A stretch of DNA of 64,000 bases from Ophioderma brevispina (taxonomy: Eukaryota > Echinodermata > Ophiuroidea > Amphilepidida > Ophiodermatidae): the NCBI GenBank assembly GCA_023653785.1, contig JAMKCH010084979.1:62001-126000 (forward strand), given 5' to 3'. The position numbers were made by a program, and so were the translations under genes. The notes under the pieces were generated by a model. That model did no database searches, was not told the DNA's origin, and worked only from the letters and a program-made list of their open reading frames with translations. The stretch's first letter is position 1. The number at the start of each line of letters is the position of its first letter. Below, one piece after another: positions 5,301 to 54,268 of the stretch.

Positions 5301-8300
5301 CCACATACGTTGGTCTGGTAACTGTGGAAGCGCTCCGGGGAGGTCACTCGAACAGCTTTCTTCGTACCCGGTGAAACTTTCGCCAGGTCGTTGAGGACTG
5401 CTGAGGGAGACTACAACTCCTTCCTGAGGACTCCGAGCCATAGATCTTGACCTAGCAGCCAAGTTGCCAACGGACAAGGGGGCTTCTCCGCTGCCTTCTC
5501 TTTCTCCTTCTCTGGGAGATTCAGTTGAAGCACCTCGACCTGGGCGTGCCCTCTGTATCAGACTAGGCGCTTTCTCTATTGTCCTCGCCCACGAGATCAG
5601 ATCCTCAGTGGGCGAGGATGGAGTTTTCTCCCGGAAGCCTCTGATGCCTTAACGGTCCTAGCCTCGCTGGTGACCAGCAAACATAGACTTCAATGTCTAT
5701 GGCGCGGCGCCTCAGCTTCCTGCGACGCGAGAACGCTGCTTCACTCTCCGAACCTGAAGTGCCGTCTAGCCGGAAGTCTCTAAGGCCAAGCCCGAGTCGC
5801 TGGACCTTCCCTTCGGAGGTTCGTTCCGTGAACTCTCTCTCTGCTTACCTCAGCGGAGCGGTAGAGTCGGAGCAAGGCCCGCTCAAGGAAGCTCAGGCGA
5901 AGACTCCTCCGGGAGATCTTCGGCTAAGTAGAAGAAGAAGCGTCCCGCGCTCTTCTCTGGTCGTATCGCCAGCCCGGCGAAGCCGACACTGCCTCAGCAA
6001 CCCAAGAAGCCCTCAGCTCCGGGGCGCGAGCTACTTCTCTCAGAAGCCGGTCCGGGCCGAGGACTCGTCCCCCTCCCAAATGCAAGGCGCCTGGGAGGGG
6101 GAGATCCTTCGTCCTGAGGGCAACGGCGGCCGCGTGTCTCTCCTTCGGGGGGCCTTACCACCTCCGGGGGGCGGCCGCTTTAGTTCTTACGTGCGCTGGA
6201 ATGGCCAGCCATTTCTCCCTCACCTTGGGTGCTGAGTGTAGTGGAGCGGGGGTATCGAACTAGAGTTCACTGCGGAAACCCCCGGCGACTTCCCCTCCGA
6301 GACCTACTAACCCCCCTTTCCGGGGGAACCGAAGAACCGTGTTCTTCTTGACGACGGTCTCGGCGCTCTTGGCGAAAGGTGCCATCCTCCCAGTCTACCC
6401 CCCCCCTTCACCAGGGGTTTCTGGTCGATGTTCTTCTTGGCCCCCCAAGAAGACCGGGGATTGGCTTCCCATCCTGACTTCTCACTGATCGCTTTGATAC
6501 GGACTTGTAAAAAAACTTCTACTGTCCGAACTAACAAGTCCGCTATTCAGCGCGATCCATAAAGGTTTCGATGACGGATCAACCATTAATGACGATGGCT
6601 TGATCTGTCTCTCCTTCTAGAGGGATGTTTAATACCCGACCTCCGGCCAGGAAGACGGTCCCACCATGGGACCTTAATACTGTCTTAGACTATTCTAGTG
6701 AGCCCCCGTTTCGACCAATGGCTGAGGCGTCACTTAAACATGTCACCTTTAAGACGGTCTTCCTGGTCTCTCTCGCCTCTGGGAGACAATGCTCAGAGAT
6801 TACGATATCGCGTGTCAGCGTCAGAATTCCTCTCGGGACCGGGTCAAATTGTTTTAAAAGTCGGGATTTTCTGGCAAGAACTAGTCATCCTCATTCCGAC
6901 ACTCACATTATCTTACACCCTAATGCATGTCACCTTTGGTGCGGGAAGATCGCCTGTTGTGTCCTGTTCGGGCCCTTGAGTCCTATAAACGTAAAACTAT
7001 CCGCTCAGGGGCTCGAACGCCTCTGGTTTCTTACACCTCGTCTCCCCCCCGGTCCTCGTCGAAAGCGACCAATTGCTTGATGGATTAGCGCTGTAATTAA
7101 TGATTCGAACGCAGTGATAGAGCCTTCCAAGCTCGAGCCCATTCTGTCCGTACATCACGTCGTCCTGGGCCTATCACCGCGGAATCAGCACTGCCTAAAT
7201 CTGCGAAGCTATGTCGTGGAGTGCTCCCACAACGTTCTCGTCGGTGTCCTACAGAAACTACAAACTCCCAAGAGAACTTTGCGAGGGCCTCCTGCAGAAA
7301 CAACACTATTTCAACTACACTATACATAATTCTCCCCTTCCGGTTACCGACTATGACCCTCGCCCCGGAGTCTTCGTTGTCAGGCGAGCATCTATGTCCC
7401 AGATTCTTAGTAATGCCTTTAGCACCTTACTGGTGTGTTTTTTTTAGTGCAGGTCTCGCCTTTGGCTGCATTCCTGTTGGCTGCTCTGATATATCATGCT
7501 CCACCTCCGACTGAGTGTGCTATTCTGGTGTTGATTGAAAATATTCTTCACCACGGAGGTTAATGCATATATTTCAGTCACATTGTTGTACAGGAATCAA
7601 GTTTTCAGTGTAATGATTTATTCAAAAACCACTTATTTTTTATAATCATCTAACTGAAGCCTGATTTCCCTTCCCATTTGACTTCCCGCTTCCGGGCCCG
7701 CCACAGCATGATAAATACGCGCGTCCGTGTGGGTTTGAGCTAAAACGGAATTGAGGAAGAGCTAAGGTCGACAGGGTGTGACCTGGGGCACTGGTCGAGA
7801 CCATTTCTTTCCTCTTTTAGGGGTGTTATGGTAATTTGGGGCATTCCACTTCTCAGAAGGGAAATGCATATAGTTCAGTCAACATTGGAAAGGAAATCAG
7901 GCCTTCGTTAGATGATTTATAAAACATAATGTGTTTTTGAATAGTATGTGTTTGGTTTATTTTGGACAATGGTAGCTATTGCACTTACAACCTTCTTGCA
8001 CTCACATGCAATATGCCCAAAAAAAATGCTACCCCATCTGTTTCAATCTCTATAGCTCTGCTGTTGATGGATTTCAATAGATTGGAATGTTGCACTTTTG
8101 GACCTTACTTGCAACATGTTATGGTCATTTATCACAGCCTTACGTGTGTTTGGCATGAATATACATCTGCTGTTTACTTTTTTTGAATATACACTTAGCC
8201 ATTCTTCTTTCTTCTTGTTCAGTTTGATTACACAACAACTCCATTTGATATCTGTAGTGTTATTATTAGTTAGGTTTCTCATTCTCTAAAAACTTATGTT

Positions 8301-22168: not shown

Positions 22169-25123
22169 TGATGGGCATCAAAGTACAGTCAATGCTGCAT
22201 TCATGATGTACTCTCTCGTGCAGGTTATTGTACTGTGCTGTGGGTGCTTGAGTTTCAGGTGAGTTTATGATAGCTTATGGTGGTGGTAGTAGTATAGCAA
22301 TGTTTACCTAGACTTAAACAGGGAACTCAAGTGTTTTGTTGATTTTAATTGATCATTGAGGTGTCTTATATGGTAATTTTTACCAGATTGATGCAGCAAC
22401 ATTGTTTAACCTACTTTCTTTATTTTTTCAAAGCAATGTCAAAGCAGCATGTTTTATAGCTATCGTTTTGGAAGGTTGTCCGATAGAATTGGAGAGACCT
22501 CACCAATTTTGAACCTGTTATTTTTATGTAACAATTTGGTTGCACAATGTTAAATTCACTGTCATACTTACATGTATATTTCGTATGTTAACGGGCAAAC
22601 TGAGGTCACAATTATTAGTTTCAGGAGTTCATTGGCCCTAAAATTGCAATGTTTTTTCTCCAATACATATTTAAGATACCACTGATGGCATATTTGCACA
22701 TCTTTTCAAGTGCCAGATGTACTAGGAAGTCACAGGATGGGGGGTCGTCAACGGTCATTTAAGAGTCTTTTGAAGTATTTTTAAAAAACATTCAAATTCA
22801 AACTTTTTATTATGTTTATAATTGGCAATGTACCGCATGAACAAATTTGTGGGTGTAAATTTAACCCAATTGGATACCAACATGCATACATCTTTCTGCC
22901 ATAGAAAGATGATGAGAAGGACATCATTCAAATTCAGCTGAACTATAATTCCATTTATTGGTGACCTGTTGGGATTGCTTTCTCCCCATTTTCCTTTTGT
23001 GTTTGTGCCTTACACTGCAAGAGAATTGACCTGGATGATGGGTATTGGATCTTCATTTTTGAGTTATGACAGTGTGTCAATTTCTTGCACTTCAAATAAC
23101 TAAAATTGACAGATCTGTGCTCTAGGCATACTGTAATTAGGACTTGTTACGTAACTACATGTCATAGCACGCACATGGTCGAGACAACATTCTTTGTAGA
23201 GTCTGTGCTCGTAAACAAAGCTTGTCAATATTGAAATCTAAAGTCCCCCCACACTTCTTACCTAACAATAGTTTGAGATTATTATTTCAACTGAACCGTT
23301 AGCCTTAGTAATCCACATGTTATCCTAATCTGCATCTGTAAGAAATTTGCCATTTTTTTATTTACGTCCGTACACAGAATTACAGCCCAGTGGCCCTCTG
23401 GGACTGTGGGAAACAAGGCACTGCTTATAACACAAACCTGCAAGATCGGAATCAAACTAAATTTTGTGAATAAGCTTTTCTCAAGGATATCTAGTGAAAC
23501 ATGAATGACAACAGAATAGAGTGCTGGAATCACCAAAATGCACCTTCCTTTAACCATAGATGTCTATTCTGTGCATCCCCAACCTTAAACTGTGAATGAA
23601 GTTTTTTTGAGTAATTTTCTCCACAAAATTGAGAGAGAAGGAGAGAAAAAGAAATTTTATCATTGAAAATACATTCTTTTTGTTTTCAATGAAATTTTTG
23701 TTCGGTGTGAGTGGCACACATTAAACATAGCAATGATGTTTGTTTTCAACTTGCCTCAAGAAGTTAACTTACATTTTTAAAAAAAAGAAGAAATTTGAGA
23801 TAAATATCACATTCCCCATAGGTTTAAAACTCTTTAAGTTTAAAAGACATGAAAACAAACAATTTAATATCAGAGGATTAGGCAATTAGACTCTGTGGCT
23901 CAGTATCACTGCTCTTTGTAAAGTTTGTGTAAACAAAGTACCTAATATATTACTCTGCCTCTGAGCATTGTCTGTATGAAGGTTAACAATTAGGCTAAGA
24001 GAGGAACTTGATACATTGACAATTATTGACCATTGTCATTAAAAATCATGTCATACATTCAACATGATTCAGAGGTGCTCTGATAACTGATGTAGCTAAA
24101 CAGTTGCACTCATGACATTACAAAACATATTTATATTAGTGGGAGAGATTGTTACCAAAGAATAGTTCCAAATCCATGCTCTTATTTGCACATTACACAT
24201 ATTTTGAATTTTGGCGCATATTGCACTGTTGCCAAGTTGCAATGTTTTATGTATTTCTTTTATGTGATGTAAAATAGGCCAAGGTGTCAGATCTGAGAAA
24301 CTAAACCATAAAGAGACGCTAGTTTTACTTTGTTGCTGCGTGTAGAAATTATTAAAAGAAAGCTTTGGTATTTGTAATTGTAAATTGTAATAATTCTTGT
24401 ATACAACTAATTTAGTTTAGCTTACAGCTTGTAGAAATATGGACGGGCAAAACCAAGAGTTGTGATTGGTGATGTGCTGGCTGTTTTTAAGGGTTTAAAA
24501 AAATATCCGTGGTGTTTAAAAAGATGCTACCAACCATAACGGTATAAAATTTTTTTGAGGGCAAATGGCAAAGGTTCACAGGACACACTCACATTTGAGC
24601 AGTCATTCCCACAGAGACGAGTTGAGATTGTTCTCCATATAAATTCTGTAGTGTCTGTCTGATGAATGATATGAGTGAAGACCAGCAACTTTAAAGGAGG
24701 CTGCTAGTGTGAGGTTGTAGTGAGCTTGCATTTTTTGTCCAGTGTTAATGATAATCACAGCTTGAAGTAGAGCATATTTATGTCCGATTGGTGTTGTGCA
24801 TTACTACAGTTATGTTTAATAGTGATGTCTATAAAGTATACAATGATCTTGTTACATGTAAGTAAACATTGGGTGAGTAAGAAAGAAAGTGAAACAAACT
24901 CTCATGATTCTTCCATGACCCTACACTCGGGGCTGACATTCCTTTCATAACCAGGATTAAATGAACCACATTAAACCAATGATACACTCAATGATCCCTG
25001 ACCGTCATAATATAACAAGAGGAAGTAAACTCCCACTTTAGCCCTTTGCAGTTGTACTATTCGGCATGTGTAAAACGTTCTCGTTGCATGATGGATGAAT
25101 TTTGGGGGAAGGAAAATGGTAAA
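22169..25123. other. Intergenic DNA, no gene recognised
   Basis: This AT-rich sequence contains only short open frames without coding composition or splice context. Simple A/T runs and scattered short motifs are present. I see no repeat boundary that I can defend. Confidence 0.5.
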
Positions 25124-26966: not shown

Positions 26967-28431
26967 TGTTACAATGTCTAACAGAAGAAGAAAGAAATCA
27001 AGGGCATTGCCTTATGTCATTTAAACACTTGTGTCTGGACAAATGTTTAATCCACAGACAAATCATAGGTGTTTTATCAGTAAAATTAAAGGTTTGGCAT
27101 TGAACTTTAAATTACACTTGTATAAGTCTGATTTCAGTGTGATAATTTAACTGAAAAATATCATCTATATGGGGATATACTACAATCTTGTTCAAAATTG
27201 TTGGAAACACTTTGGTGCAGATTTGGTTCCAGCCCCATCATTTCAATGTTGCAGGAGCACGAACACTTTGCCAATCTCGCACCAATTATTTCTCAACAGT
27301 GATGGGAGGGGTGGGGAGGGGGAAAGAAGTTAGTTATAGTTACAATGCATTTTAAGCATAGAGATCTTTCATAGCTGCCAATATTAACAGCGGCCCCCCC
27401 CTGTTCCAAGGACTTATGAACACGATTGTCGAAAACCACCGTTCTTGGCTCAGTGACCCGCTTCTAGCCAAAGGTGACCACAAACTTAGCAAGAAATTTC
27501 AGATCAATACATCCAAAAGAATTCTTTTATTTTAACTTACTATTTTTAAATTAAAGGCACTTCAGTGATTTGCCAAATCAGGAAATCAAAAACATCATCA
27601 AAAATTGGATTTTTGCATGTCTGTATGGACAGGAGTAGCTACCATAACATACCCTGCAAGCGATAAGGCTGAAAGCAACCTAATAAAGGACAAAATAGAT
27701 AGTTTAGTCATTACTGTCCCAACGGACCTTCTACAGCAAATGAATGGACGATGCATATCTTTGAACACTTGCTGTTTTTCTTCCTTTTTTTTGTAATTTT
27801 TCATCCGGAAAAGAAAATTAAATGCAAAATTTACGGACTTATTCTTCACTTTTACACTAATCTTGCAATTTTCGAAAATTTTGACTCTCTTGGATGGATC
27901 AATGATAGTGACTTTCAGATTATCTTATTTTCACATGCATTTAGCATTTCCACTTAGACTTGGTCGTCCATGAATATTGGAAAAGTGGTGCCATTTGCAT
28001 AGCAAACACACATTGGTTGCAATATTAGTGTTTATTTGTTATGACCATCTTTGCCTTTAATGAGGCAGTGTCAAATTAGGGGAAAGGTTGAGTAACAAAG
28101 TAACACTACTATCTCGACAAATTGATGGAGAAAATATCAACTTTAAATCCAGTAACAACTTCAATATGACCCTCCTGGTGATATGTAATGAATTATTATG
28201 TGATGGACTTCTGCTGAGAACTAGTGGCATCTTCAAAATATATGTATTACCATATGTATCAATTCTTAGAGCTTTTATTGAAAGTCTGTTCAAAAAAATA
28301 ATCATGAGTCGACCAATCAGCTACCAGTTCCAAATTTCAGTTCATTTTCACAAGCTGGTCCTTTAGTAAGTTAGAACCTTCATGTGACCGTACAGTTGAG
28401 GAGATATGCAATTTTTTTTTGCTGAAATATA
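26967..28431. other. Intergenic DNA, no gene recognised
   Basis: No exon with coding bias or paired splice sites is evident. The opposed small frames at 27.6-27.85 kb are complements of each other over the same AT-rich sequence and neither resembles a protein. Confidence 0.45.
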
Positions 28432-29515
28432 GATTAGGGTGTGTAGAATAAGAATCTGCGGTGCCACATGGGCATCCTTGGGCATTTTGAGAAATCCAAA
28501 GATGGCGTCGCAATTAATGATAATGATATTATTCAACCCCTATATTATCAAACTAGGAGTTACTATATATACTATATGATCCATGAACAAGTGTATGGCA
28601 CTTAACATTTAAGTCATACTTCAAATTCAAAAGGAGCTAAATCCAATTAATTTGAAAAAAATATGCCCTATTACAGCAATTACTGCTAAAAAATAGACTT
28701 GAAATACTTATGGTTATGTTATTAAACAAATTAAATATTATTTCTGATACTTTTAAAATTGTAACATGGCGTCAATCAATATGGCAGCAAAAACGTGATC
28801 ATCTTCAAAAAATACTTGACACAAATTTATAAGTATTACAGCCTCAAATCGAAATCAATGTGCCAAGACATGAGAAATGTACGTTTGATCCTTACCAAAT
28901 GTACAGCATACATTCAATTTGTTTTAAATGCCCAAAACGAAATAAAACAATATGGTGCAAAGTTTCAAAATACCATAGGAATTAAATTTTTACATATATG
29001 CACTCAATGTATAATTTGACACATTTTATTCCTGGGATTACCTGGATCACTTGGTTATGTCATAGTACATTTCTAATTGTTCATTGACACAATACTTATA
29101 CTTGAAGGTAATATTTAGAAATTGGTTGTCAGTGGTTTTTGAAGATATTCACGTTTCTGGCGCCATTTGATTGAGTCAGGTTAATGTTAGAACTTTAAAG
29201 GTATCATAAATACATTCTTGGTATCTAACAACATAATCTAAGTACTTTCATTGTTTATTTTTTATCGCAGGATTTGTGTTTAGGGCATATTAATTGATTA
29301 GATTGGGCGTCAATTTTGAATTGGAAAAGCTATGACTTAATGTTACAAGTGCCATACACTGTTCATTGGATGCCTCTAGTATAGCTAGTAACTCCATAAT
29401 TGATAATATTAGGGTTGAATATATAATTATCATTTAGGGCGACGCCATCTCTGAAATTTCTCAAAATGCAAAGGATGCCCAAGTGGCCCCCGGCAGATTC
29501 TAATTCAACCCTAAG
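28432..29515. mobile_element. Large fold-back element with arms of about 240 bp
   Basis: The left arm 28432-28675 is the reverse complement of the right arm 29281-29515 over nearly its full length at about 80 % identity by eye. Shared strings include GAGAAATCCAAAGATGGCGT in the left arm against acgccatctctgaaatttct in the right, and GTGTATGGCACTTaacattt against atgttacaagtgccatacac. The spacer of about 600 bp shows no coding capacity. Long terminal inverted repeats of this kind suggest a fold-back or MITE-type DNA transposon. Confidence 0.75.
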
Positions 29516-32329
29516 CATCATTTAAGAAAAAAACTTGTGTATATACTAACTCTACGTCAGGGCATAATTTGCGACCATATCCACCGACTATTTCAGATAT
29601 CAAACCTTGATTCAAAAGATTAGCTACACAACCTTCATTATAAGCATGGAAAAGGGACCATGCCAAATAAAGTTCCAAAGTGGTTGAAAACTCAGTGATT
29701 GAAGGAGTAGTCTGACTTAAAATGAGAGTTTTGGAATTGTTTGAAAATAAGGTCACTCAAAAGTCTGCTGTTTTATAAGTTTATGATTGAGAGCACAACT
29801 TTGATGTGCAGACATGTTATAGTTTTAGACTGTTTTCATACTGGCGTGTTCAGTTCAGTTCTGACAACAACATGAACCAAAAACAAGAATCTAATTTTAG
29901 GCAGGGGCTTGTTGTTCTTTCAATACCACAATGCGATGGGTCTATATACAGCTCCATGGAACTTAACTGAAATAAGGAAGTCAAGACTACAATTAGGTGT
30001 TTACAAGTGGAGTTTTCAAAAGTGCCTGTTTTAACCATTTTGGAAGTCTTGTTACAGCAGATAAATAGGTTGCAATTCAACCAAAAATTCTTCATTTTGC
30101 AATACGGTGCGCCGTCTGCGCTACCCTTTGCCAGTCCAATTTGTACCGTAAGGGTCGAATTGCGTTCAACTTCATTGATTAACACACAATTGGTGCGTTT
30201 ATCATGTTGAAAACAGCTAACGAAAGATTTTGTACGATCGAAAGACGCAGGGGTTTACTTATTTACAATAGGCCCTTTGGTGTGCATTCGAACACAATAT
30301 TATACATTATATTGCCAAACTAATGATCAGTGACGTGTTCCTGTGAATATTTGTATTAGTAGGTCTGATGTGACAGTTTCAGGTTGATGGGTCGCACCGC
30401 GGCTGATCGTTGGGGCACGCCTTATTGACAAGTTGTAAGGAACTGAGTCACAACAATTGTATTTATTGCAAACTTAATTGGATTGTATCTGAAACCAAGA
30501 AATAACTCAAATGTTCAAAACTATGAGATTCAATTATACAGTACTAATGACAGAAACCAATTCTTCAATGTGAATGTTTGGTACAAACCGATATGATAAC
30601 TTGATGTTATTTGTTTTCCCTATTGAAGTTGCAAAAAAATTAAAATAAGATCTTATTTAAACTGCTTTTGAGAAATCTGCTTACAATTATCCAACCTTTT
30701 TTGGTGCTTGACTCTGAAATCTTGTGATTAATATGTGAATATATTCCATGAGTTTTAACAATACATGATTATCTTATCAGTGTTATGGTGGGGGAGTGCT
30801 GAGTGCTTCCTGTTGAAAGTCCGTGGGAAATCGGCAAACAGCCCCTAACAGTTGTACACATTCTCTTAATGCTTTTATATGACATTGCTAAGACTGACAC
30901 TGCAGTAATACAGTGATTCTACTAGCCCATATTTGCAAGGTTGGTGTAGTGATGGTCTATGGTAGCATGTCCTGTTCAAATCAAAAATTGTTACGAAAGT
31001 GGATGACCTGATAAGATCCTATTTAAAACATGTCGTCACATGCAGCCATGGGGCACGCACTACACCAAAACACTCTTGAGAATATAGCATTACTTTAAAA
31101 CGTACTTGCACAGGTGGGAGTATAAGGAGTTTGCGCAGTTGTATTTTGTGAAAGAATCTTCAGTTGAAAAGGTTATGCAACTTCTTAGTCTGTTCTTGTC
31201 CCTAGCAGTGAGGCCGCATTAGTAGGCTGAGATACCATTGTCACCATTTGCTGAAATGCACGATGATGTCAATGATGGAGAAAATGAAAAATATCATATT
31301 ACTTTCATCCAGGTAGTAAGAGTCAGTGGTCAATCAAATACGCAACGTGTTATGATCAAGGCAATGGAAAAGGTTAGTAGGAAGCAGCAGTCTATACGCA
31401 ACATAGTGGTTACATGTGACGGCAGCAAATTACAACTTGTTGTAGGCCAGCAATGGTTAGGACGGTGCTTAGCACCATCTAACCATAGGGTCGTGTCATG
31501 AAACCAACGGTGCGATGGGGGCGGGGGGCTTTGCTTAATGCATCCATAGCAGGCAGATTTTAAGACTAAACAAATGGTTTTATATTGTACATTGTGCCAT
31601 GTCAAATCAACATTCAAAGTACGAAATCACTTGTTTTAGCATGATGTGTTTTAAATCAAGATAAATGTTTGGGAGATTGTTTCATAGTATCCTTGGTGTT
31701 CATATTTGAATAATTATGATGTTAATTTCTAGAAAACACAGCTTGAAAAAACAGGATCCCTAAGAGCCAGTTGCTCTAATGTGAACTGAGAAATGGCTTT
31801 TACTTTGGATTTCATCCCCCAAATTTTGTTCACATAGAAAAAAAATACAATGAATAAAAGAAGAAATAAAAATGGCCAATAGGTTTTGTGATATGAAACA
31901 TCACTTGGGAGGACGACCTTTTCCGTATCTATTTGGGATTTCAAACTATAAGCTCAAAATGTGAATGTTTTGAATTTACTGTGATGGTAACCACTGGACA
32001 AAAATTTTCAAACAGAGGAAAATTCTTCCTTGCCAATTGATGTATGAACAAGATGGCATTTTAACGCCAAAATGAAAGTCTTACCTTCAGATAGAGATTC
32101 CGTAATTGCGCTTAAAAATGTCAAATTTCCAAAACATTGAAAACCACAAGGAGATTGAGCAATGTTTTAAAAGTGTGTTAATTTCAAAGAACTGAGCTTA
32201 TTTTATATGGTCAGGCTGCGGTAATATGTTGTGCAATGAGTGTTAGCAATTATACAATTGGATTAAAAAAAAAATTATATTTTTTTTTTTGCATAGATTT
32301 ATATTAATATTGGTCTCTTTGCAGATTGA
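29516..32329. other. Intergenic DNA, no gene recognised
   Basis: An 87-codon frame at 31238-31501 has mildly protein-like sequence (QVVRVSGQSNTQRVMIKAME) with a preceding tttcatccag and a following gttagt, but no partner exon was found. Otherwise the region is AT-rich DNA with no recognised feature. Confidence 0.4.
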
Positions 32330-39916: not shown

Positions 39917-42029
39917 CGATGTATAAAGCATTCACAGAACTTAATCAGTTTTTCCTTATCGAGCTATCACAAAGCTTGGTGTTGGAAGTGCTACTATGTA
40001 GTAAGTGTTCAAATGGTAGTCTGTTGTGTTTACATTACAGGTGTACTGCACATGGTTTTTCCCTTTCTCCCTAGAGAGGCTTCGTACATGCACTAGGAGC
40101 CAATAGTCTCCAGTCCCATGACAACTGTTCAGTACTTTCCATTCACCAGTGTATATTAAAAATACACCCTCCTGTTTATTGGTATTATAATATGATACAC
40201 CCGGGTACACAAGGTTCATTTCTTAGTAATACATGTAGCATGAATCAACACATTTGAACTGTGTCCCTTGGTGGGTGGAGCATATTGTAGCACTATATTG
40301 TGTGTGTATACCTGTGGAAAAATATCAAGCTAGCTTTGGAGCTTGAATTTGGATACAGGGATACATTCACGAGTTTGAGTACCTCCTACTCTTTAATTGA
40401 GGAGAATGCATGTTCAAATGTTCAGTTTGGTGCTAATATGGTTTTGAGGTTTTTTTCCAGCAGTATAGTGCCAGCACTCTAAGAATTGAAAAAAAGAGAA
40501 CTACAATAACATTGAGGCCCCTTAAAAAATAAAAAATGTCAAGTTTCCACCTTGTAAGTGCAGTTATTTAACGGGGATGTTTAACTTGTTGGAGGTCATG
40601 GATTCCATGAAGGGAGTATGTTAATGTGGTTTGCCAGATGATCTATTCAGAAGCCTTTATTATTTTAATGCAATATCCCTCCCTATGTTGTGGCGTTCTG
40701 TGTATGTTCACTATTCACAGGTCTAATAATTGGTTCTAATCTTGTCAGTGAAATCTGTATATATAGAGGAAACATGAAAAATTTGAAATGAACCAGTTTC
40801 TCCATTATCACATTTTCTCTCACTGAAGAACGGTGATATAACCTAAAACTATTTTGTTAGGAAGCACTTGATCAATCGGTTGTCTTGCATTCCAGAGATA
40901 TTCACCTTGAAACTAAAATGTATGTTTTTGTCATCTTAAGTAAGTCACGTGCATCAATTACGAGGTTTAATTCTGATGCAGTATAGATAATGTGACTGTG
41001 ATGTCAATGTTTAGCAGGACGGGGTGCCTCTGTTTGTTCACAACTGGTAAAATAGTTCATTGGTAGTTTTGTACTGTGGCAGACTCCCTAAAAATTCTGA
41101 TTGTGCCCTTCCACATTTTGTTCTTTGGTTTTGCTTGAAAGAGTATTAAAAAATCCACAATTCGTATGTGGTGTGTGTTAATTTTCTGGTGTGTTTCGGT
41201 TAATAAATTTTACAATGGTGCATTCATGGACACACTTAAGAGCTACCAAATGTGGGTCCGGAGGTGCCCATAGACTCCATTCATGGTAGGGTTAAGGTCC
41301 ATAGCCAAGGTCACATTTCATGTGATATATCCAAACAAAAGCAGCAACACTATTCTTCAAGAACCCCCCCCGTTGTCCTGAACCACCATGCTATCCCAGA
41401 TGTAAACATTTCACATCTTTAGAAATAACCATGTCCTGAAGGCATCAGTAGAATGTTACTTCACAGGTATTGCTCTGAGTCATGTTATATTGTGCAGGTT
41501 ACTAACATTAGGATAAATGTTCATAAAAAAAACCAGGGCTATGTTCTGTTACTTCATGTCACTTTATTAATAAGCTTTGCTTCAGGCTTATATACTCTTT
41601 CTGAAGCAAAAATGTATACAAGGTTGTGTGTGTGCACGTGTGCCTGCAGGCCACTTCTCCTCATCCTTTTGTTGCTTTTAATCATCTGATGCAATGGACC
41701 AAAAGATCCAGCAAAAAGATTTCATCCATTGCCGATGTGCTGATCTACAGGTGTTTGGGAATGTGTACAGTTGAGCTGACGCTGTATGAAAGGCTTCGGT
41801 AAAACTATTTGAAGTCAATCCCAGTACACTCATGTTTTGTAGCTTATCATAGTTTTCCCGGCTTAGAACAAATTCCTGACACCCTCCTATTCCACCTTCA
41901 GGGGACTGTCATTAAGTCTTGCCCCTGATTACCTTTTATGAAAAAAGTGCAGTCTACGGTAGTATTATCCTTTAAGTCTGCATCTGCAATGAATTTCAGA
42001 GGAAAAGATTCTTTTTTAGTGAAAATCTC
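39917..42029. other. Intergenic DNA, no gene recognised
   Basis: I find only AT-rich sequence with short frames. The left boundary of the tandem duplication begins near 42030. Confidence 0.4.
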
Positions 42030-42670
42030 AGAAGCGACTCTTACTTTATTTGCACAGACTTACAGACATTTGTAGTGTTTTAGTAAATATCTCTGGAGTA
42101 GGTAAAGCAGTGTAAGTGCATTTTACGTAGAAAAAATGTACCAAGCAAGATGCCAATAACGAGTACTATTTTTATGCGAAAAATGATACTCCAAATAGGA
42201 GAAAACTATGTTTTATGTAATAGTTTGACTTTTTGTAAACTCCTGTACATGAAACAAATCATGGTCTTCATTTCAAGTTGACTGATTTGCTAAGTCTGAA
42301 TTCTTATTAAGGCTTGTTATTGGATACATGCAGCCATCAACTGCATACATGGTATATTGAATACATCATAATAAAACCAAGCAGTGCCATCTCACGGGCT
42401 CATGCACTTTGACAAGGCTTGTTTATTGTGCAATTATTAGATAACCCAGTCGTCATAAAAAATAAGGCCCCATAAGTTTCTCAGTGACTTTCTTTGCCCA
42501 AAAAAACTCACTATGCATTTTCTTTCAGTAAAAAGGTCTACGCATTATGTGTGATTCTGTGTTTTTGCAAATTTAGGCCACTTTTTTCTGCTTTGCAGCC
42601 AAAAATTGGGTAGGTAGGGTCATCCTGAGGAGAAACATTTTGGGGCACTGTGGCAGGTAGCAGTTAATTA

Positions 42671-42786
42671 AGTCCCAGGATGCAAATGAGGTTTTTGAAT
42701 AGGATATCGCTCTACAGCATATCACACATGCATATCCGCACAGCAGTTGTTCGGAATAAACCTCATTTGCATCAATGGGACTTCTT
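42671..42786. repeat. Inverted repeat with octamer-like ATGCAAAT cores
   Basis: AAGTCCCAGGATGCAAATGA followed by GGTTT pairs with AAACCTCATTTGCATCAATG followed by GGACTT. The same structure is present, with indels, in copy B near 46732-46853. The cores contain ATGCAAAT, the POU-factor octamer, in both arms. Confidence 0.65.
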
Positions 42787-44035
42787 TATGAAATGAACTT
42801 TGCTGTGCATACTCCACGGTCTGCCAGCCATGGACTAGTAGATAAGAGGACCAACAACCACGAGTTCCAAAAAGACCCTATCACATTGTATTAAATCCCC
42901 ACCTGATCCCATTTAGGCTTAAGGTAAATGCGATAATCATCCTCCCAGCAGGCAGGGCTGACTGGCATCTATCTTCGGGGCATACTAGGAAAGTTCAGCC
43001 CGCCTCAAAATTTGAATGATGTAATTGCAATATTGGAAAGAGGAAATGAAAGATCAGGAAAATTTTTCTGAAATTAATGGAAAAAATCCCAATAGCCACG
43101 CCATTTCATCATTCTAAAACGATTGCTTAAAATAAACCCTCATCTACATGAGCAATTTTGTAACCAACCACCGGAAGGGGGTACCACACCTGAATTTTCT
43201 TATGAAATCCAATTTCCTACAAATATGGTACCTACAGTATAGCTTAGTTTATTCTTTCCCATTGATATCAAAATATGTAGACACCAATGATGACGTCACT
43301 ATGACGTCATACAGGGTAATAAAGTATGAAATACTGCATATAGGAAGAAGAAACATTGATATTTGCAAATTACGGCTGAAAAATAAATTGTAACAAACAC
43401 ATTTTCCATACAATGATGACAGAGACTGGCTTATGACATAATGTTCGTTATGTTATGGACTCATTTTGGTATCAAAGAGGAGGACCTGCAATATATGTGC
43501 AACTAAAATCCATGTCTGTGACATTCCTGTGTCGTACTAGGAGTGTGGGCCCATTTCCGGTCAGAAAGGGAGGGTGGGGTAATTGCCACACCCTATCCAT
43601 CACCTTGGGATCACCCTTTACCTTTCCTATACCCGATGGGGGGGGGGCACGAAATGGAGCATGGAAGGTTCTATCACTTCGTAGGTGGTAACAGTTGTTC
43701 CTCGTCGGGAGGGGGGAAACTTTCATGATCAATATTATTCGCCACTGGTATGAACTGAACCATGCCAACACGTTGTTCAACAGGATCACAACATTGCCTG
43801 CTTATTACCTCCGTTTAATTCTTTTGTTCGTTAACTAATTTCTTACAGATACGACCCGATATTTGCCACGTAAGATTAGGTACACATGGGCTACCAAGGC
43901 CAACGATTCAGATGATATAAAAATCTCAAATTTTTTAGGTAAGTCGGGGGATGAGGATGTAGATCATGAAATACCTCTTTAAACAATGCATGTATTATTC
44001 CCATGCCATTGCAAATACCAAAAATTAGTGACAAG

Positions 44036-44360
44036 GCCCATGATCATAATTATATAATATTGGATGATGATGGTGATAACCTGAAAATATCGCCCGAGCT
44101 AGATCCAATATAAGGCGAGTCGAAGACGACGAGCCTGATATTTCTTGGCGAGGGCGATGCTTTTTGTTATCAACCGAAAAGTATTCCAATATTATTATAT
44201 TATGCAAGAGGGAAGTGATTGTTACCAAAAAATAAGTTTAAAAAAGGCTTCAAAACTATAAAACGAGATTATTTGATTTGAACAGTTGCCCAATATTTTT
44301 GGTATTGTGCAGTTGGGGCGGTCCGCGCTACTCGCACTGCAGTATTGCACACCAGGTGCA
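44036..44360. mobile_element. Insertion of about 325 bp in copy A with fold-back structure
   Basis: Copy B passes directly from aattaggcaagccatgaatc to aataattgttg, whereas copy A has about 325 extra bases here. The insert contains tatataatattgga against tccaatattattata, and ggtgataacctgaaaatatc followed by gcccgag against cgagggcgatgctttttgtt followed by atca, an imperfect hairpin. A fold-back or MITE insertion is the simplest reading. Confidence 0.55.
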
Positions 44361-44734
44361 TCAATAATTGTTAGTATTGCTTTGCAGCGCCCTTAATTTG
44401 TGAAGGGTTTGCCATCAAGTTGATAAAAATTCAGTTTCACCTGGACCTGGTTTGTTTTTTTTTCAATAACAATCAGTGCAAAATTGAATAAAAGCTAATC
44501 GCATAAAGGTCAATCCCTTTTGAAACCACTGCCTGGTTTCTTCAACTTGAAGACTTTCCAGAGTATTTTTGGGCTATGGATTCCAACCCTAACCCCCACT
44601 TGAGTGCATTGTATCAATGTTTTGAATTCATTATACGAATGCTCGAGCATGTGCTTGCCTTTATTTCCTTTCTTTTTTCTATTTGTGTGATTTTATAATT
44701 GCATTTCTTGCATGTTGTTTTTGTAGGTGGTGGT

Positions 44735-44830
44735 GTATGTAGATTTTTTGCGTATGTGTGTGTGCGTGCATGTGTGCGTGCGTGCGTGTGTGAGGTATGC
44801 ATTTGTGTGTGGATGTGTGTGTGTGGGTCA
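44735..44830. repeat. GT-rich microsatellite
   Basis: A run of (TG)n with interspersed CGTGCATGTGTGCG units lies in copy A; the matching part of copy B (about 51610-51715) is much shorter and disrupted. Confidence 0.8.
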
Positions 44831-47800
44831 CTTTACTTAAATCACTTAATCTTACCAAAATCACATTTAAATGTAACCTAATCTAAACAAATTTACACAA
44901 ATACACCCAGCTTGTACATTTTTTATGAGATTTTTGGTGAGATTCAATGGCGTTAGGTATGAGAGTATAATCAATTTTAGGATGGCGCTCTTTGAGGACC
45001 TTTTCCTGACCATCAGGCTTGATCCAACGATCTGAAATCAGGTATACAATGCGCATGTGTGTGAATATGTTGTTTTTAAACAATCTCGTTGTTTCTATTT
45101 GTGTGATTTTATTTTTTGGCGGGTATAGGCGTGTCTTGTTGTTGTGTGTGGTTCTGCTCTTGTTGTTATTGTTAACTTACAGCGATAAAATCCCATATAT
45201 TTCTTGTGCTTTCTTGACTGGTGAGTTTAAACAAATTACTCGTTGAACCCATTTTTATAGGCCAGCTAAAATTGCAAATTGCCCGTCTAAAACACCAAAA
45301 ACTTTTTTTTTACCCATTCTATTGTACACGACCCGACATTCATCTGGTGTGATTTAGAACACGTGGGCACTCCGGTTTGGTAGCCATAGAGCGTTAAATA
45401 TAGCCTTTATGGTGTGTTTGGTATAGGATACAAACGTTTAAATAGCTTTTTTCTCAAAAATTTTGTTTGACCAAAAGAAAGGAATTTCAATTTTGACTTG
45501 AACAATCATCACAGAAAATTACACAAATAGCAACCAGCTGTACATTTTTGAGATGCATGGTGTTAGGGTTACTGTGTCACAAAGCAAATGAAGGTATTGG
45601 CAATTTGATTCTGTCATGCACTACTGCACAACATCAACTGGCATACCTCATTTGCATGTTTGTTACAAATAAACGTAGGCCATATTTTTAGTATTTCAAA
45701 CATGTTTAGAATGTCACAATGTCCTAGACTATCACCTGAGAGCAAACTGACGAAATTTTAAAGCAATAACGACACATTTTTTTTACGAGCATCCCATTTT
45801 CAAAATTCTGAGATTTTTGCAGTTGGTTGTCTTGTACCATACCTGCAACTGTAATGTTCAAGTGTATTCATGTCATTAAAAAAATTGTAATTAAAATCGG
45901 ATCCCCGATTTTAATTATCAATTGCAGACTGAAATGCAAATGTCTGCCCGTCCACTGTGAAAATAGTGCCACCGTACAAATTACCATCTACTGCAACTTG
46001 CCTGACCTTAATGGATAGCGTAGACATGAACATGCACTATTCCTGGTTATATCAAATTCGAAGGACCTTTCCAGCAGTCACTAATAATTTCAGTTCATCC
46101 CATTTAATTATCCGAAGCGACTTCTTACTTTATTTGCACAGACGTATTAATTTGTATGTTTTAGTAAATACTATGAGGATTCAGGTTAAAGCAGTGTACG
46201 TGCAGGTTTACGTAGAAAAAATGTACCAAGATGCAAATAACTGAGTAATATTTTATGAAAAAGTACTCCAATGAGAAAAACTATTGTTTATGTAATAGTT
46301 TGCTTTTTGATAATATCTGGTAACATGAAACAATCCATGGTCTTCATTTCAAGTTATGACTGATTTGCTAAGTCTAACCTTCATTAAGGCTTGTATGATA
46401 CATGCAGCCATTCAACTGACATACAATGGTATTATTGAATCTACAATAAAAACCAAATGCAGTTGCCCTCCAAGGGCTCACACTGCACTTTGACAAGGCG
46501 TGGTATGGGCAATTAGTACCATAACCCAGTCGTCATAAAAAATAAGGCCCCCATAAGTTTCTCAGTGACTTTGCCCCAACACTCCTATGCATGTTCTTTC
46601 AGTTAAAAAAGGCTACGCATATGTGTGATTCTGTTTTTGCAATTAGGCCACTTTTTTTGCTTTGCAGCCAAAATTGTTAGGTCATCCGTGAGGAGAAATC
46701 TTTTGGGTGCATGCGGTTAGCAGCTTAATAAGTACAAGTATGCAAATGAGTTTTTGAATAGGATCTCGCCACTCTCCAGCATATCGCACATGCATATCTC
46801 GCACAGCAGTTTGTTTCGGAATAAACCTCATTTGGCATCAATGGGACTCTTAAATGAAACTTTTGCTGTGATACTCAGTGGTCTGTCCAGCATGGACCCT
46901 AGTAGATAAGAGGACCAACAACACATAGTTCCAAAGACCCTACACATTGTTTATTTAAATCCCACCATGATCCCAGTTACGGCCTTAATGGTAATGCGTA
47001 ATCATCCTCTTAGCAGGAGGGCTGATGGCATCACTCTTCGGGGCATACTGGTAAGGTTCAGCCCGCTTCAAATTGAATGATGTATAATTGCAATATTGGA
47101 AAGAGGAAATTGAAAAGATCGGAAATTTTTCGAATTAATGGAAAACATCCCATAGCATGCCATTTCATCATTTAAACTATTGCTTAATAACCCTCATCTA
47201 CATGAGAATGTTTTGTAACAACACCACCGGAAGGGGGTACCAACCCCCTAGAATTTTCTTTATTGAACATCCAATTCCAAATATGGTACCACAGTATAGC
47301 TTAGTTTTATTCTTTCCATTGATATCAAAATATGTAGAAACAATTATGACGTCACCATGACGTTCATAAGGTAATAAAGTATATGAAAATACTGCATATA
47401 GGGAGAAAGAAACATTGATATTTTGCAAATTACTGGCCTGAAAAAAAAAAAATATATTGTAACAAAACATTTTCCATTCTTGTAGAGACATGTCATTAGG
47501 ACATATGTTAGTATGTTGGTACTCATTTTTGGTATAACCGGAAGAGGAGGACCTTGCATATATTGCAACTAAAATCCAATGTCTGGGACATTCATGTGTC
47601 GTAAATAGGCGTTGGTATTTGCCGTCCCGAAGGGACGGGGGGTGGTAATTGCCACAACCCTATCCCTCAATTTGGATCACCTGTACATTTCCTTTACCCC
47701 GATGGGGGGGGGGCAGAAATGGAGCAGGAGGTTCCATTCACTTTCGTAGGTGGTAAAACAGTTGTCCGCGTCGGAGGACTATTCATGATCAATATAATCG

Positions 47801-48438
47801 CCACTGGTATGAAAGAACACTGCCAAATTTGTTTCAACCAGGGATCACAACAGGACTGCATTATACCTCAGTTTAGTTTAATTCTTTTTTCGTACTAATC
47901 GATTTAAAACAGAAAGGACCTCTCTTAAAGTACCAGTAGTATTTAAAGGTGTGCATTTCGTGATTTTCAGCACCTTCTGTTTTATTATTCACTAGATTCC
48001 TTGAGGAAGAAAAGTTATTCACAAAATTTGAGTTGATCCTATCTTGCATTTTGGTTATAAGCAAGTGCCTGTTTCCCACAATCTCAATAGGCACGGGCTG
48101 TTATTCTGTCTGTACGGACAGAAATACAAAATGCAAATCTTACAGATACCGACTAAATTTGCACAAGATAGGTACACATGATTACCAAGGGCCAACGAGT
48201 CAGATGATATTAAAAATCTAATTTTTTTTAGGGGGTCAGTAGGGGGAGAGGTTGTGGATAATGAAATGCCCCTTTAAACAATGCATTTATATTCCCATGC
48301 ATGTGCAAATACAAAATTAGGCAAGCCATGAATCAATAATTGTTGTATTGCTTTGCAGCGCCCTTACATGTGAAAGGGGTTTGCACATCAAAGGTTGAAG
48401 TCAAAGTCAGTAGTCCCCTGGACCTGGTTTGTTTTTTT

Positions 48439-51347
48439 TGTCGGGTCGACTTAGCGAAAACCCGCCTATAGAAACCACTGTTCTCAAAATTGCGAAGGAG
48501 TCTATTTTTATAGCTGAAGAGGTCAATTCATTAAATGTTTCTTTATGAAAATGATCTAGTCTACTATAATTTTTGGAAGTTTTAGGGGTGGGTGTGTAAT
48601 GCGATGCAAGTTCAGACAAAGAATAAATCATTGCAGGTTTGTGGAAAGGGCCTTCTTAAAAAGATTTCTTTGATTTTAGTCTTGATGAAGGACTTGCTTT
48701 TTGATGGGGAGTTTGGTTAAAAAACGTTGCAGGGATAGATAAAGGGTGGTATAAACAAATAGGAGATTTGTAAGTAAGAAAATGATCAGCCAATCAGATG
48801 TTATACTACGCAATGATTGAAGCTTTTACCTTGTATTGTGTGATATTATTTAAGACGAAGGTTTAGGTACAACATCTTATTGAAAAGACAGGAAGGTGTA
48901 TTTAACCTACAGTAAATTAAAGCTTAAAATTGCGAATTCAGTTTTAACACATTTTGCGCCCCAAATGGGAGTTTTCTAGTTTCTTTTTTGAAATGATAGG
49001 AAGGAGTTGTAAGCTATGTTAAATTAAAGCTTATAACTTGGGGATTCGGTTTTAACACAATTTGCGCCAAATTGGGCGCAAAAAAAGAAAAATATTTTCT
49101 TTTATTTGAATGCGGCGGCAGGGGTAACCTATGTTAAATACACTTATAAATTGGGGATTCATTTTTTTTAACACATTTGCCGGCCCAATGGGCGTGTTTG
49201 TTCTATTTTCTTATTGAAATTGATGGAAGGTGTAACCTATGTTAAATTTAAAGCTTATAACTTGGGGATTCAATTTTAACACATTTGCGCCCAATTGGGC
49301 GTTTTTTCTATATACTTTATTTAAAATGACAGGATGGTGTAACTATGTTAAATTAAAAGCTTATTAACTTGGGGTATCAGTTTAAACAAATTTTGCGCCC
49401 AATTGGGCGTTTTTTCTATTTTCTTTATTTGAAATGATTAGGAAGGTGTAACCCTATGTTAAATTAAACTTTAATTGGATCAGTTGTAAAAATTTTGCGC
49501 CCAATTGGGCGTTTTTTCTATTTTCTTTATTGAAATGACAGGAAGGTGAACCTATTGTTTTAAATTAAAGCTTATAACTTGGGGATTCGTTTTTTACACA
49601 TTTTGCGCCCCAATTGGGCGTTTTGCTATTTTCTTTATGAAAGACAGGACGGTGTTTTGGAAGCTATGTTAAATTAAAGCTTATAACTTGGGGATTCAGT
49701 TTAACACATTTTGCGCCCCATTGGGGCGTTTTCTATTTCTTTATTAAAATGATTAGGCAGGTAACCTATGGTTAAATTAAAGTTTATAACTTGGGATTCA
49801 CTTTTAACACATTTTGCGCCCACTTGGGCGTTTTTTCTATTTTCTTTATTTAAAAATGACGGAAAGGTGAAACCTATGTTTAAATTAAAGCTTATATACT
49901 TGGGGATTCAGTTTTACACATTGCGCCCAATTGGGCGTTTTTTCGATTGTCTTATTGAAATGATAGGGAAAGGTTTGTAACCTATGTAAATTAAAGCTTA
50001 TAACTTGGGGATTCAGTTTTAACACATTTTGCGCCCAATTGGGCGTTTTTTCTATTTTCTTTATTTGAAATGAAAGGAAGGTGTAAACCTATGTTTAAAT
50101 TAAAAGCTTCTACAATTGGATTCAGTCTTTTTAAACATTTTGCGCCCAATTGGGCGGTTTTTCTATCTTCTTGATGTGAAAGACAGGACGGTTGTAAACC
50201 TATGTAAATAGAAGTTTATAACTGGGAGGATCAGTTTTAACCACATTTTGCGCCCAATTGGGCGGTGTTTTCTATTTCTTTATTAAAATGATTAGGAAGG
50301 TGTATGTTAACCTATTTAAATAAAGTTTATAAATTGGGGAATCAGTTTTGTTTTAACCACATTTTTGCGCCCAATTGGGCGTTTTTCTATTTCTTTATTT
50401 GAAAGACAGGACGGTGTTTTGGAACCTATGTTAAATTACGCTTTAACTTGGGGATTCAGTTTCAACACAGATTTTGCGACCAATTGGGCATTTTTTTTAT
50501 TCTTTATTTAAATGATAGGAAGGGTAACCTATTTAAATTAAAGGTTATAACTGGGGATTCAGTTGTAACACATTTTGCGCCCAATTGGGAGTTTTTTTTA
50601 TTTACTTTATTTGAAAGACAGGAAGGTTTGTAACCTATGTAATTAAAGCTTATAACTTGGGGATATCAGTTTAAACATTTTGCGCCCAATGGGCGTTTTT
50701 CTATTCTTTATTGAAATGACAGGAAGGTGTAACCTATGTTAAATTAAAGCTGTAATTGGGATTAAGTTTTTTAACACATTTTGCGCCCAATTGGGAGTTT
50801 TTTTTTTTTTTTTTTTACTTTTTATCTGAAATGACAGGAATGTGTAACCTAGGTTAAATTAACGAAACTGAGAACTGGGGATTCAGTTTTAACAATTTTG
50901 CGCCCAATTGGGCATTGTTTCTTATTTCTTTTTTGAATGACAGGAAGAGTGAAGCTATGTTAAATTAAAGATTAGAACTATGTGGGGTCAAATGTCCAAC
51001 ACCAAGGTAAAGGTCAACGGGAGATAGTTGAAACAAGGTGAGCGGGTTATAATGCAATCTTATGCTCAGTATCAAAATTACTCTTTAATCAGTTATGAGA
51101 TTTTTTTTGATACCGTTTCTGTCATAAAAGTGCAACTTAAAACTCGAAAACATCTACTCCTTTAAATGCTTGGCACCATGAATTTAGTTTCTGCCACCAC
51201 TTAAAATTCGGCACCCTTTAGCATGCGGTTTATTCAGTTCTGTTGCCGACTTCGTAGCCTGTGGCAGACAGAATACTAAATTCTTTCCAAGGCTTTTAAG
51301 TTTTTAATGTTGTCTATTTCTTGTAAAATTTGCCTGGCGACCCGACA
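48439..51347. mobile_element. 2.9 kb inverted-repeat-bounded insertion containing a satellite array
   Basis: The left end TGTCGGGTCG (48439-48448) and the right end CGACCCGACA (51338-51347) are perfect inverted repeats. Copy A has an uninterrupted sequence at the corresponding site (cctggtttgtttttttttcaataa), so copy B shows the filled and A the empty site. The target is a T run, so a target duplication cannot be read with confidence. The interior has unique flanks of about 400 bp on each side of the satellite array at 48880-50990. No transposase is seen. The superfamily is not assigned. Confidence 0.7.
48880..50990. repeat. Satellite array, about 107 bp unit, about 19 copies
   Basis: The core GCGCCCAATTGGGCG, itself a perfect palindrome, recurs at about 49287, 49395, 49497, 49606, 49817, 49923, 50031, 50142, 50249, 50368, 50577 and others, at 100-120 bp intervals. 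Between cores, each unit reads TTTTCTATTTTCTTTATTTG, AAATGACAGGAAGGTGTAAC, CTATGTTAAATTAAAGCTTA and TAACTTGGGGATTCAGTTTT with ragged single-base indels. Frames through it code only short meaningless peptides. Confidence 0.9.
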
Positions 51348-52464
51348 CAAGTTTTTTTAAATTACTTGTTTCAATAAAATCAGTGAAAATTGAATAAAAA
51401 GCCAATCGCAGGAAGGTCATATTTACCTGGTGTGCTTAACCTTGAATGAAGAATTCCAGAGTAAATTTTTGGCTATGGATTCATAACCCTAACCCCACCA
51501 CTTGGGTGCATTGGATCAATGTTTTGAATTCATATGCGATTGCTCGAGCATGTGCGTTTCCTTATTCTTTCTTTTTCTATTGTGGATTTTTATAATTGCC
51601 ATTTGGTGTTGTTTGTATGTGTGTTGTAGGTTTTTTGATGTGGGGGGTGGTGTGCGTGCTGTGTGCGTGAGTGGTGAGAGGTGTGCATTGTGTATGGGAT
51701 GTGTATGTGTGGTCAGGTACTTAAATCACTGAATCTTACAAAATCACATTTATGTACAATAATCTAACAAAAATTACACAAATAGCAACAACCAGCTTAC
51801 ATTTTATGAGATTTTGTGAGATTCAATGGAGTTAGGGTATGGTATCAATTTAGGGATGGCGCTCTTGACCTTTTCCTGACCATAGGGCTTGATCCAATGA
51901 TTTGAAATCAGTATCGGGAAGGCGCATGTGGGTGAATATGTTGTTTTACCAACTCTCGTTCTTTCTCTTTGTGTGATTTTATTTTTGCTGGTGTAAGCGT
52001 GGTCTGTTGTGTGTATGTTTTTCATTGTTGTTATTGTTTACTACACGATAAATCCATATATTTCTTTCTGCTTTCTGACATGGTGAGTTTAAAAAAAATT
52101 ACGCGTTGAAACCCATTTTATATAGGCCAGCTAAAATTGCAAATTGCGTCTAACAAACACCAAAAAACTGTTTTTACCAATTTATTTACACTGACCCGAA
52201 TATCATCTGGTGTGAATTTAGAACAAGTGGGCACTCCGGTAGTAGCCATAGGCGTTTCAATATAGCCTTTATGGTGTATTGGTATAGGAAAATACAAACT
52301 TTTAAATAAGCTTTTTATCAAACATTTTGTTTTCCTTGGGACCAAAAGAAAGGGAATTTCCAAATTTTGGACTCTTGAACAATCATCTCAGACAATTACC
52401 ACAAATAGCACACCAGCTATACAGTTTGTGAGATTAATGGTGGTGTTAGGGTTATGTGTCACAA

Positions 52465-52541
52465 ACATGCAAATGAGGTATTGCAATTGATTCTGTCATG
52501 ACACTACTGCCACAACATCAACTGCAATACCTCATTTGAAG
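52465..52541. repeat. Hairpin with GCAAATGAGGTATTGCA arms
   Basis: ATGCAAATGAGGTATTGCA and TGCAATACCTCATTTG are inverted, about 50 bp apart, in copy B. The equivalent in copy A (about 45587-45656) has the same arms with small differences, so the structure is retained in both copies. Confidence 0.65.
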
Positions 52542-53010
52542 TTTGTGACCTAATGAAAACCGTAGCCATATTTTCAGTATTTCAAACTGTTTAGAATGTC
52601 CACAAGGTCCTAGGAACTATCAACCTCGAGAGCCAAATTGAAGAAATTTTAAAAGCAACTAACGAACATTTTTTAAGAGCCATCCCCCATTTTCAAAATT
52701 GAGATTTTTTGCAGTTGTGTTGGTTCTTGTAAAACAGACCTTGCAACTGTAATGTCAATGTATTCAGTTCTGTCATTAAATTATTAAATTAAAAAAAATT
52801 GTAATTAAAATCAGGACCCATTTGTAATTTCATGGCAGAACTGGAAAGCCAATTTCTGCCGTCCCACTGTGAAAATAGTGCCACCTCACAAAATAACCTC
52901 TAACTTAAACTTGCCTGACCTTAATGGATAAGGTAGAATGAACTGCACTATGTCCTGGTTTTATATCAAGGGAAGGACATTTCCAGGCAGTCACTGAATC
53001 TCAGTATACA

Positions 53011-54268
53011 ATATAATATCCTATTAAAAAGTCCTTCTTTTTTGTGGACACTAGACATGTTCGCAGCTCTAACATTCACAGGTATTAGTTTACTAATACT
53101 GCAAAACATCTAAAATTTTTTGGAACATGGGGGGCACTCTTTAAAAAATGGGCTGTTATTATCAAGTCATTTGGAGGCAATTCCGTGACCGTTAAGAGCA
53201 GAGCATCATTTTCTTTTACCACAAAGACAAGTAACCAAGTGTTCATGGACTTTTCATCTTGTTGCCAAGGATTAAAAAAACAAAAGGAATAGTTTGTACA
53301 CAATGTCTGGTTTATACAAGATCAAGGGACAAAAAATAGCGAATGTCATCACCAAAGGTTAAATCTTTAAATTGCACCCATTTCGTCCACAATGGCTGAA
53401 ATTTTTTAACCTTACACAGGGTATTGCAGCAAAAACGAAGTTGTAATCTCGTTTTGTATTTGGTTATCGAGTTAAATGACAACCAAGACCAATGCCATTG
53501 ACCTTCTATGAACTCTGAATTTTAAAAAATATGTTGCCAGTGCAACATATTTTTGTTGCAGTCTGCGGAAAGATGAACAATTTGAGCCCATTTTAAAGAT
53601 GAGAGCAATACAGAGATATTAAAATAACAGAGAGATGCCGTACGCCCGCGTTTGAAGAATAGCGCGGGCCACGTAACCGTGTTTGTGGCAATTATAAACA
53701 TTCATTACGGTATCCATTCGAAACGCGAACGCGAATGCGCCGTAACCTGTTGGCCTGGAAACGGTACATCGTTCTATGCAAATGGTGAATAATGAATAAA
53801 TTGGTACACCACGCTAGGTAAATCAGGGAATATATGAATAAATTGTACACCACGGTTATGGAAATAAGTACGCCACCCCCCAAACAAACCTGGGCGGGAA
53901 AAGATGGGTACGGCTTGTGAGCGGCGTTTGTATCTAGTGTTATATAAATAGAACTCTGTGGTGGAGCAATATTAAGATTTAACCTTTGGTGTTTAGGGGG
54001 GGATGCGGACTCATTATGGCTTTGGACTTAACACAAGGCACAAAACACGTGACATTTTACAGTACGATGGTATTTTGAACTTTATGTCGGAACGATAACA
54101 ATGTAATGTACGGTTGCCAGTTCCTGAGTTTATAAGTTTTTATAACTATATTGACCCGATCAGTTGCTTACATAACATGTCAATACTTTACTTACAAGAG
54201 TTATCTACTATTGAAAGAATGCCAACCTGGCTTTGAAAGAGGACACAGAGTTGCTTGCTAATTATGTT
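53011..54268. other. Intergenic DNA, no gene recognised
   Basis: I see no exon. A nearly repeated phrase (aataaattggtacaccacg / aataaattgtacaccacggt) lies at about 53795-53855. Part of the region is CpG-richer around 53640-53760. Confidence 0.4.

Follow-up and report, generated by a model that had tools for sequence, protein, structure and literature searches.

Two copies of a ~4.1 kb repeat, A and B, abut head to tail with ~80% identity in the window, the whole 64,000-nucleotide stretch of Ophioderma brevispina DNA that was analysed. Copy B (46111-53021, + strand) carries an insertion that is absent from copy A (42028-46113, + strand). The limits of the insertion were determined by scoring 1430 joins of the B flanks against A, with the end of the left flank placed at 48425-48450 and the start of the right flank at 51330-51384. 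In the top three joins (score 97) the left flank stops at 48437-48439 and the right flank begins at 51369-51371, whereas a join at the outer edges of both inverted repeats scored 51 and joins that begin the right flank at 51348 reached 65 at most. Because of these scores, the 21 nt outside the right repeat (51348-51368) were taken as part of the insert, which spans ~48439-51368, or 2930 bp, to within one base, since the target is a T run. The same scoring of B flanks against A revealed no target-site duplication in this filled/empty pair. The original prediction of a filled and an empty site therefore stands for an insertion in B that A lacks, and fails for exact boundaries at both repeats: A does not lack exactly the segment bounded by TGTCGGGTCG and CGACCCGACA, as the best join puts the right boundary 21 nt past the right repeat. 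The features of the element and its target are listed below with their basis.

48432-48438, no strand: target T run on the left (window letters and join test)
48439-51368, + strand: whole element, a putative non-autonomous Helentron (HINE) of ~2930 bp with its 5' end on the left (empty-site join; start and end common to other copies)
48439-48448, + strand: 5' asymmetric inverted repeat TGTCGGGTCG, reading TGTCGGGTCGCC in copies with the common loop (exact motif search; other copies)
48440-48464, + strand: 5' terminal hairpin region, altered in the window copy, where other copies read GTCGGGTCGC-CTTA-GCGACCCGAC (window fold; other copies)
48439-48879, + strand: left module, ~440 bp (alignment starting at its first base in 19 of the 20 copies fetched)
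48880-50979, + strand: central tandem array, 19.4 copies of a 107-108 bp unit (tandem repeat analysis)
50980-51368, + strand: right module (matched at 17 of the 20 loci fetched, its terminal piece at 15)
51172-51300, + strand: right-module segment of ~129 bp, unmatched in 14 fetched loci (adjoining right-module pieces there)
51338-51347, + strand: 3' asymmetric inverted repeat CGACCCGACA, separated from the 3' end by 21 nt (motif search; join test)
51348-51368, + strand: 3' terminal segment ending in CTTG, outside the inverted repeat, a weak palindrome (join test, folds, other copies)
51369-51371, no strand: target Ts on the right (window letters and join test)
44455-44463, no strand: empty counterpart of the target in copy A, a T run (A/B comparison and join test)

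The predicted inverted ends are present, with TGTCGGGTCG at 48439-48448 (+ strand) and its reverse complement at 51338-51347. The 10-base end has three exact matches in the window against 0.03 expected from shuffling. Of 61,129 offsets in the window, 16 gave a 10-base inverted repeat in the layout of the element, a count that includes shifted forms of the true site. The third exact match lies in copy A (45329-45338) and is not conserved in copy B. The possibility that it belongs to a second element was set aside, since B differs there and neither module matches; it is due to chance or unexplained. The array was also as described beforehand, at 48880-50979 with 19.4 units of ~107 bp (TRF period 108, consensus 107 bases). 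Its unit contains the palindrome GCGCCCAATTGGGCG(C), and against 1891 matches the array shows 109 substitutions (32 of them transitions), 100 insertions and 81 deletions, with only a few positions differing in at least four units. The satellite motif had no match in the viral collection and none in the prokaryotic collection. The longest stop-to-stop frame of the window copy is 76 aa, in agreement with the predicted lack of a transposase, and a Pfam search of ten window frames returned no family. A literature search with the 10-base end yielded no transposon paper by title, and GCCCAATTGGGC was not found in the literature text searched.

The element's first 562 bases served as query against the window's own genome (2.51 Gb, 65,844 contigs). 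The first look gave 2203 candidates, and all 40 that were scored, the window's own included, were strong matches; 20 of the 39 scored relatives other than the window were fetched and examined in detail. Other insertions with these ends do exist, so that unshared ends, which would have refuted the original prediction, are not what was observed, and the left module starts at the exact first base in all but one of the fetched copies (L026, at base 5). The left module, array and right module follow one another with at most ~35 nt between pieces in 11 of the 20. At 14 loci the matches end near right-module position 165-193 and restart near 314-323, the two pieces being adjacent or almost adjacent in the locus. 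The 5' end follows at least four Ts in 17 of the 20 fetched copies, and fewer in L023, L024 and L026. The layout of the 3' repeat seen in the window copy is also present in other copies, and 14 3' ends were legible (13 from 11 fetched loci and the window's, after five short-matching ends had been dropped); a T follows in all 14 and TT in 12, although both L014 ends have a common flank and may be one site. When the flanks of nine copies, the window's included, were compared by eye, no common duplication was seen beyond the Ts. The element itself is not bounded by an assembly join, an outcome the original prediction had named as refuting, since its start and its end recur at other sites.

An exact 10-bp stem with a 4-nt loop was found at the 5' end of 11 of the 20 fetched copies, the loop being CTTA in eight, TAAG in two and CGTA in one. 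In L018, the one other copy folded for its 5' end, the hairpin folds with a z of -7.3. The window copy has an altered 5' hairpin that is no more stable than its shuffles (z -0.59), and 5-bp stems with the repeat arise at this end in 3329 of 20,000 shuffles. At the 3' end the window copy has an imperfect palindrome with fold z values of -2.2 and -1.6 for two cuts. This hairpin, CAAGT...ACTTG, was convincing at first: an end-to-end stem of at least five was obtained in 269 of 20,000 stretches drawn at random from the window and in 235 of 20,000 shuffles. A 5-bp stem in itself is common by chance (2010 of 20,000 shuffles), and the 3' ends of two other copies fold like shuffles (z about -0.3), so the 3' hairpin was rated as weak and not counted in support.

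These properties make it very probable that the element is a non-autonomous Helentron (HINE, Helitron2 group), with a palindromic 5' end, a 107-bp array and a 3' repeat lying 21 nt from the end. The assignment was made because published descriptions agree with its asymmetric ends and 5' palindrome, with insertion into a T run that leaves no duplication, and with tandem repeats in the centre. The passages of PMC3627910 on Helitron2 give asymmetric terminal inverted repeats 8-15 bp long, with the 5' repeat lying 0-2 bp and the 3' repeat ~20-30 bp from the end, together with a 5' hairpin and insertion after TTTT; in our element the 5' repeat lies at the boundary and the 3' repeat 21 nt from it, and the 5' hairpin with its inverted repeat is formed by the exact stem in 11 of 20 copies, the window copy being altered. 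For HINEs, the relevant parts of PMC4067079 and PMC7492417 describe T-rich targets, no target change and tandem repeats, and those of PMC11136912 give the same account for oyster Helitrons in general. Here, the T-rich target without duplication was observed in one filled/empty pair and by the Ts before 17 of 20 copies, and the element is noncoding (76-aa longest frame) with the array in all 20. PMC5148889 also agrees with this set of features, and it reports joined ends of a circular intermediate for a Fusarium Helitron.

The element is a new family of an already known kind, satellite-carrying non-autonomous Helentrons, its likeness to known HINEs being one of description. As far as the parts of PMC7492417 on Cg_HINE of the Pacific oyster go, modules and subterminal inverted repeats there likewise surround a satellite-like array (up to 29.3 monomers), and the target is T-rich without duplication as in the window; the monomers, again compared by description, are mostly 140-180 bp, against 107 bp here. 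HINE-Mo of a mite and DINE-1 of Drosophila are, in the sections of PMC4067079 that treat them, non-autonomous with T-rich targets and some tandem repeats, as here. The same sections give mite HINEs palindromic subTIRs of 12-15 bp, like our element, but ~38-60 bp from the 3' repeat to the end in HINE-Mo, compared with 21 nt. Helitron2 of Chlamydomonas and others is similar in the lengths and positions of its asymmetric repeats and in its 5' hairpin, and most Helitron-1N1_CRe copies lie after TTTT without duplication, as here (PMC3627910, in part). However, a 3' hairpin is expected in Helitron2 and is weak here, and the Helitron2 passages of that paper mention no central satellite.

The original prediction had described a TIR element of unclear and perhaps undescribed superfamily that moves a tandem array. 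An element that is mobile and holds the array is borne out, but the TIR type is not. The perfect 10-bp inverted repeats near both ends and the lack of a long reading frame would suit a cut-and-paste TIR transposon or a MITE of unknown superfamily with an acquired satellite. Such elements have their repeats at the exact termini and duplicate the target, whereas the right boundary lies 21 nt outside the repeat, the window pair has no target duplication and the flanks of the nine copies show none beyond the Ts, which makes this origin very improbable. The asymmetric ends, palindromic 5' end, T-run target without duplication and central tandem repeats fit Helitron2/Helentron instead. Since the repeats read TGT...ACA, a solo LTR of a retrovirus-like element with TG...CA ends was considered as well. 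The boundary lies beyond ...ACA, a 4-6 bp duplication is missing, the 5' end is palindromic and the central array varies in length, so that a solo LTR can be given practically no credence. The TIR transposon, the MITE and the solo LTR were all rejected on the boundary position and the missing target duplication.

If the element is a non-autonomous Helentron, a RepHel protein would mobilize it in trans (with an endonuclease if it is a Helentron in the strict sense). Helitron Rep domains do occur elsewhere in the genome, with 60 Helitron_like_N matches, of which some lie in open frames of at least 888 aa. The exact 10-base end was absent from the 12 Rep loci examined (~3.5 kb each), and no contig is common to the 50 with Rep matches and the 99 listed as containing the exact 5' end or the left module, so an autonomous element with these ends was not found among these loci and listed contigs. 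Eight partial Rep frames were scanned and matched no helicase or endonuclease model, which slightly lowers our confidence in the Helentron assignment.

The nature of the A/B pair bears on how the locus is read. Between A and B, 83 of 321 substitutions are transitions and 162 of 264 gaps are single-base, with gaps taking up 11-12% of the columns in two long alignments. The left module of B deviates from the family majority by 15.5% (15 transitions in 43 substitutions); deviation elsewhere is 0.7-5.3% in 14 of 19 rows and 9.4-19.7% in the other five, the majority having been built from the same rows with the window included and L026 omitted. A 301-bp insert specific to A is 86-87% identical to three relatives, from the 39 scored, that share 96-98% among themselves. 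An old, diverged copy could give such identities, but the few transitions and short gaps led us to favor read errors over divergence. If read errors are the cause, A and B would each hold ~10-15% errors and their 20% difference would need little or no real divergence.

There is thus an even chance that A and B represent a single locus, as two alleles or as two readings that the assembler placed in head-to-tail order, with the insertion as a presence/absence polymorphism, and a recent tandem duplication is about equally likely. The noise in both copies seen in the above figures (83/321 transitions, 15.5% against 0.7-5.3%, 86-87% against 96-98%) speaks for alleles or readings. So do fetched loci L009 and L012, in each of which a single contig repeats one flank together with the start of the element, as a clean and a noisy reading (L009 1-1086 and 2245-3365; L012 1-943 and 3848-4870, element orientation). 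The L009 pair has 5 transitions among 45 substitutions, 65 insertions and 30 deletions, and the L012 pair 20 transitions among 74 substitutions, 100 insertions and 20 deletions; both doublings differ by 12-19%, with insertions outnumbering deletions, which suggests assembly doublings in this genome. However, the window is without N and A and B meet without a gap, and they are both noisy, whereas L009 and L012 each pair a noisy reading with a clean one. A query made of the initial 1812 bp of A matches the genome at full length in two places, both in the window's contig (40 of 2870 candidates scored); a true duplication would likewise leave the full-length query without a match elsewhere. The doubling into A and B may itself be an assembly join. 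Under either reading of the pair, we infer that the insertion is later than the separation of A and B. The pair fixes the ends of the element. It is also a warning that, where an assembly is rich in errors, a doubling that is recent or artificial can be mistaken for an old duplication.

The A-specific insert of ~300 bp lies at 44055-44355 and belongs to a repeated family (1690 first-look candidates, 40 scored). Copy B alone has an insert of ~240 bp at 47899-48138, related to 23326-23553 on the other strand. A dispersed repeat of ~835 bp at 42828-43662, inside the duplicated unit, is the sole part covered by most scored matches of the A query. Outside the pair, a GC-rich stretch of 5.2 kb (2744-7900) is flanked by inverted repeats (2744-2905 and 7738-7900, 83.5%); we take it to resemble a DIRS-type retroelement, and several of the ten frames searched against Pfam came from it, with no match. 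A palindrome of 1.17 kb without spacer at 28389-29556, with arms 71% identical, is an element or a read artefact.

The 5' hairpin also occurs in two loop orientations. The exact 30-base 5' end has 57 genome copies with the loop CTTA, and 10 more copies have TAAG, its exact inverse, the inverse being seen at L012:402 and L015:402 in element orientation. In L012 the clean reading has the inverse loop and the noisy second reading of apparently the same locus the common one, so the two orientations may stem from alleles or assembly error. Should the loop forms be biological, the hairpin might be inverted during transposition (flip-flop), which we regard as improbable; if true, the 5' end would be processed through a closed or self-primed hairpin. 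Such a flip-flop was not found in the Helitron literature searched, which included parts of PMC3627910, PMC4067079, PMC7492417 and PMC5148889.

The array follows the left module in all 20 fetched copies, with 0.3-28.1 units, and the predicted variation in its length was observed, 2.6-28.1 units being found in the 11 copies with left module, array and right module. These differences in part track assembly quality: first arrays have 0.3-5.4 units in the 14 low-deviation rows and 6.4-28.1 in the five noisy rows and the window, and short arrays in clean rows are what the collapse of arrays in short-read contigs would produce. Still, the noisy copies differ enough among themselves to support a truly variable array length.

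In the mechanism we propose, RepHel would nick in the T run and one strand would be copied by rolling circle. Copying would end where the inverted repeats and the hairpin signal the end, and the strand would be pasted between Ts. The array would be carried along as cargo, its length altered by slippage or unequal exchange. This family is a warning that inverted repeats that look symmetric can conceal an asymmetric Helentron end. It adds a case of a 107-bp satellite dispersed by a rolling-circle type element, and fits the published view of Helentrons spreading satellite-like arrays.
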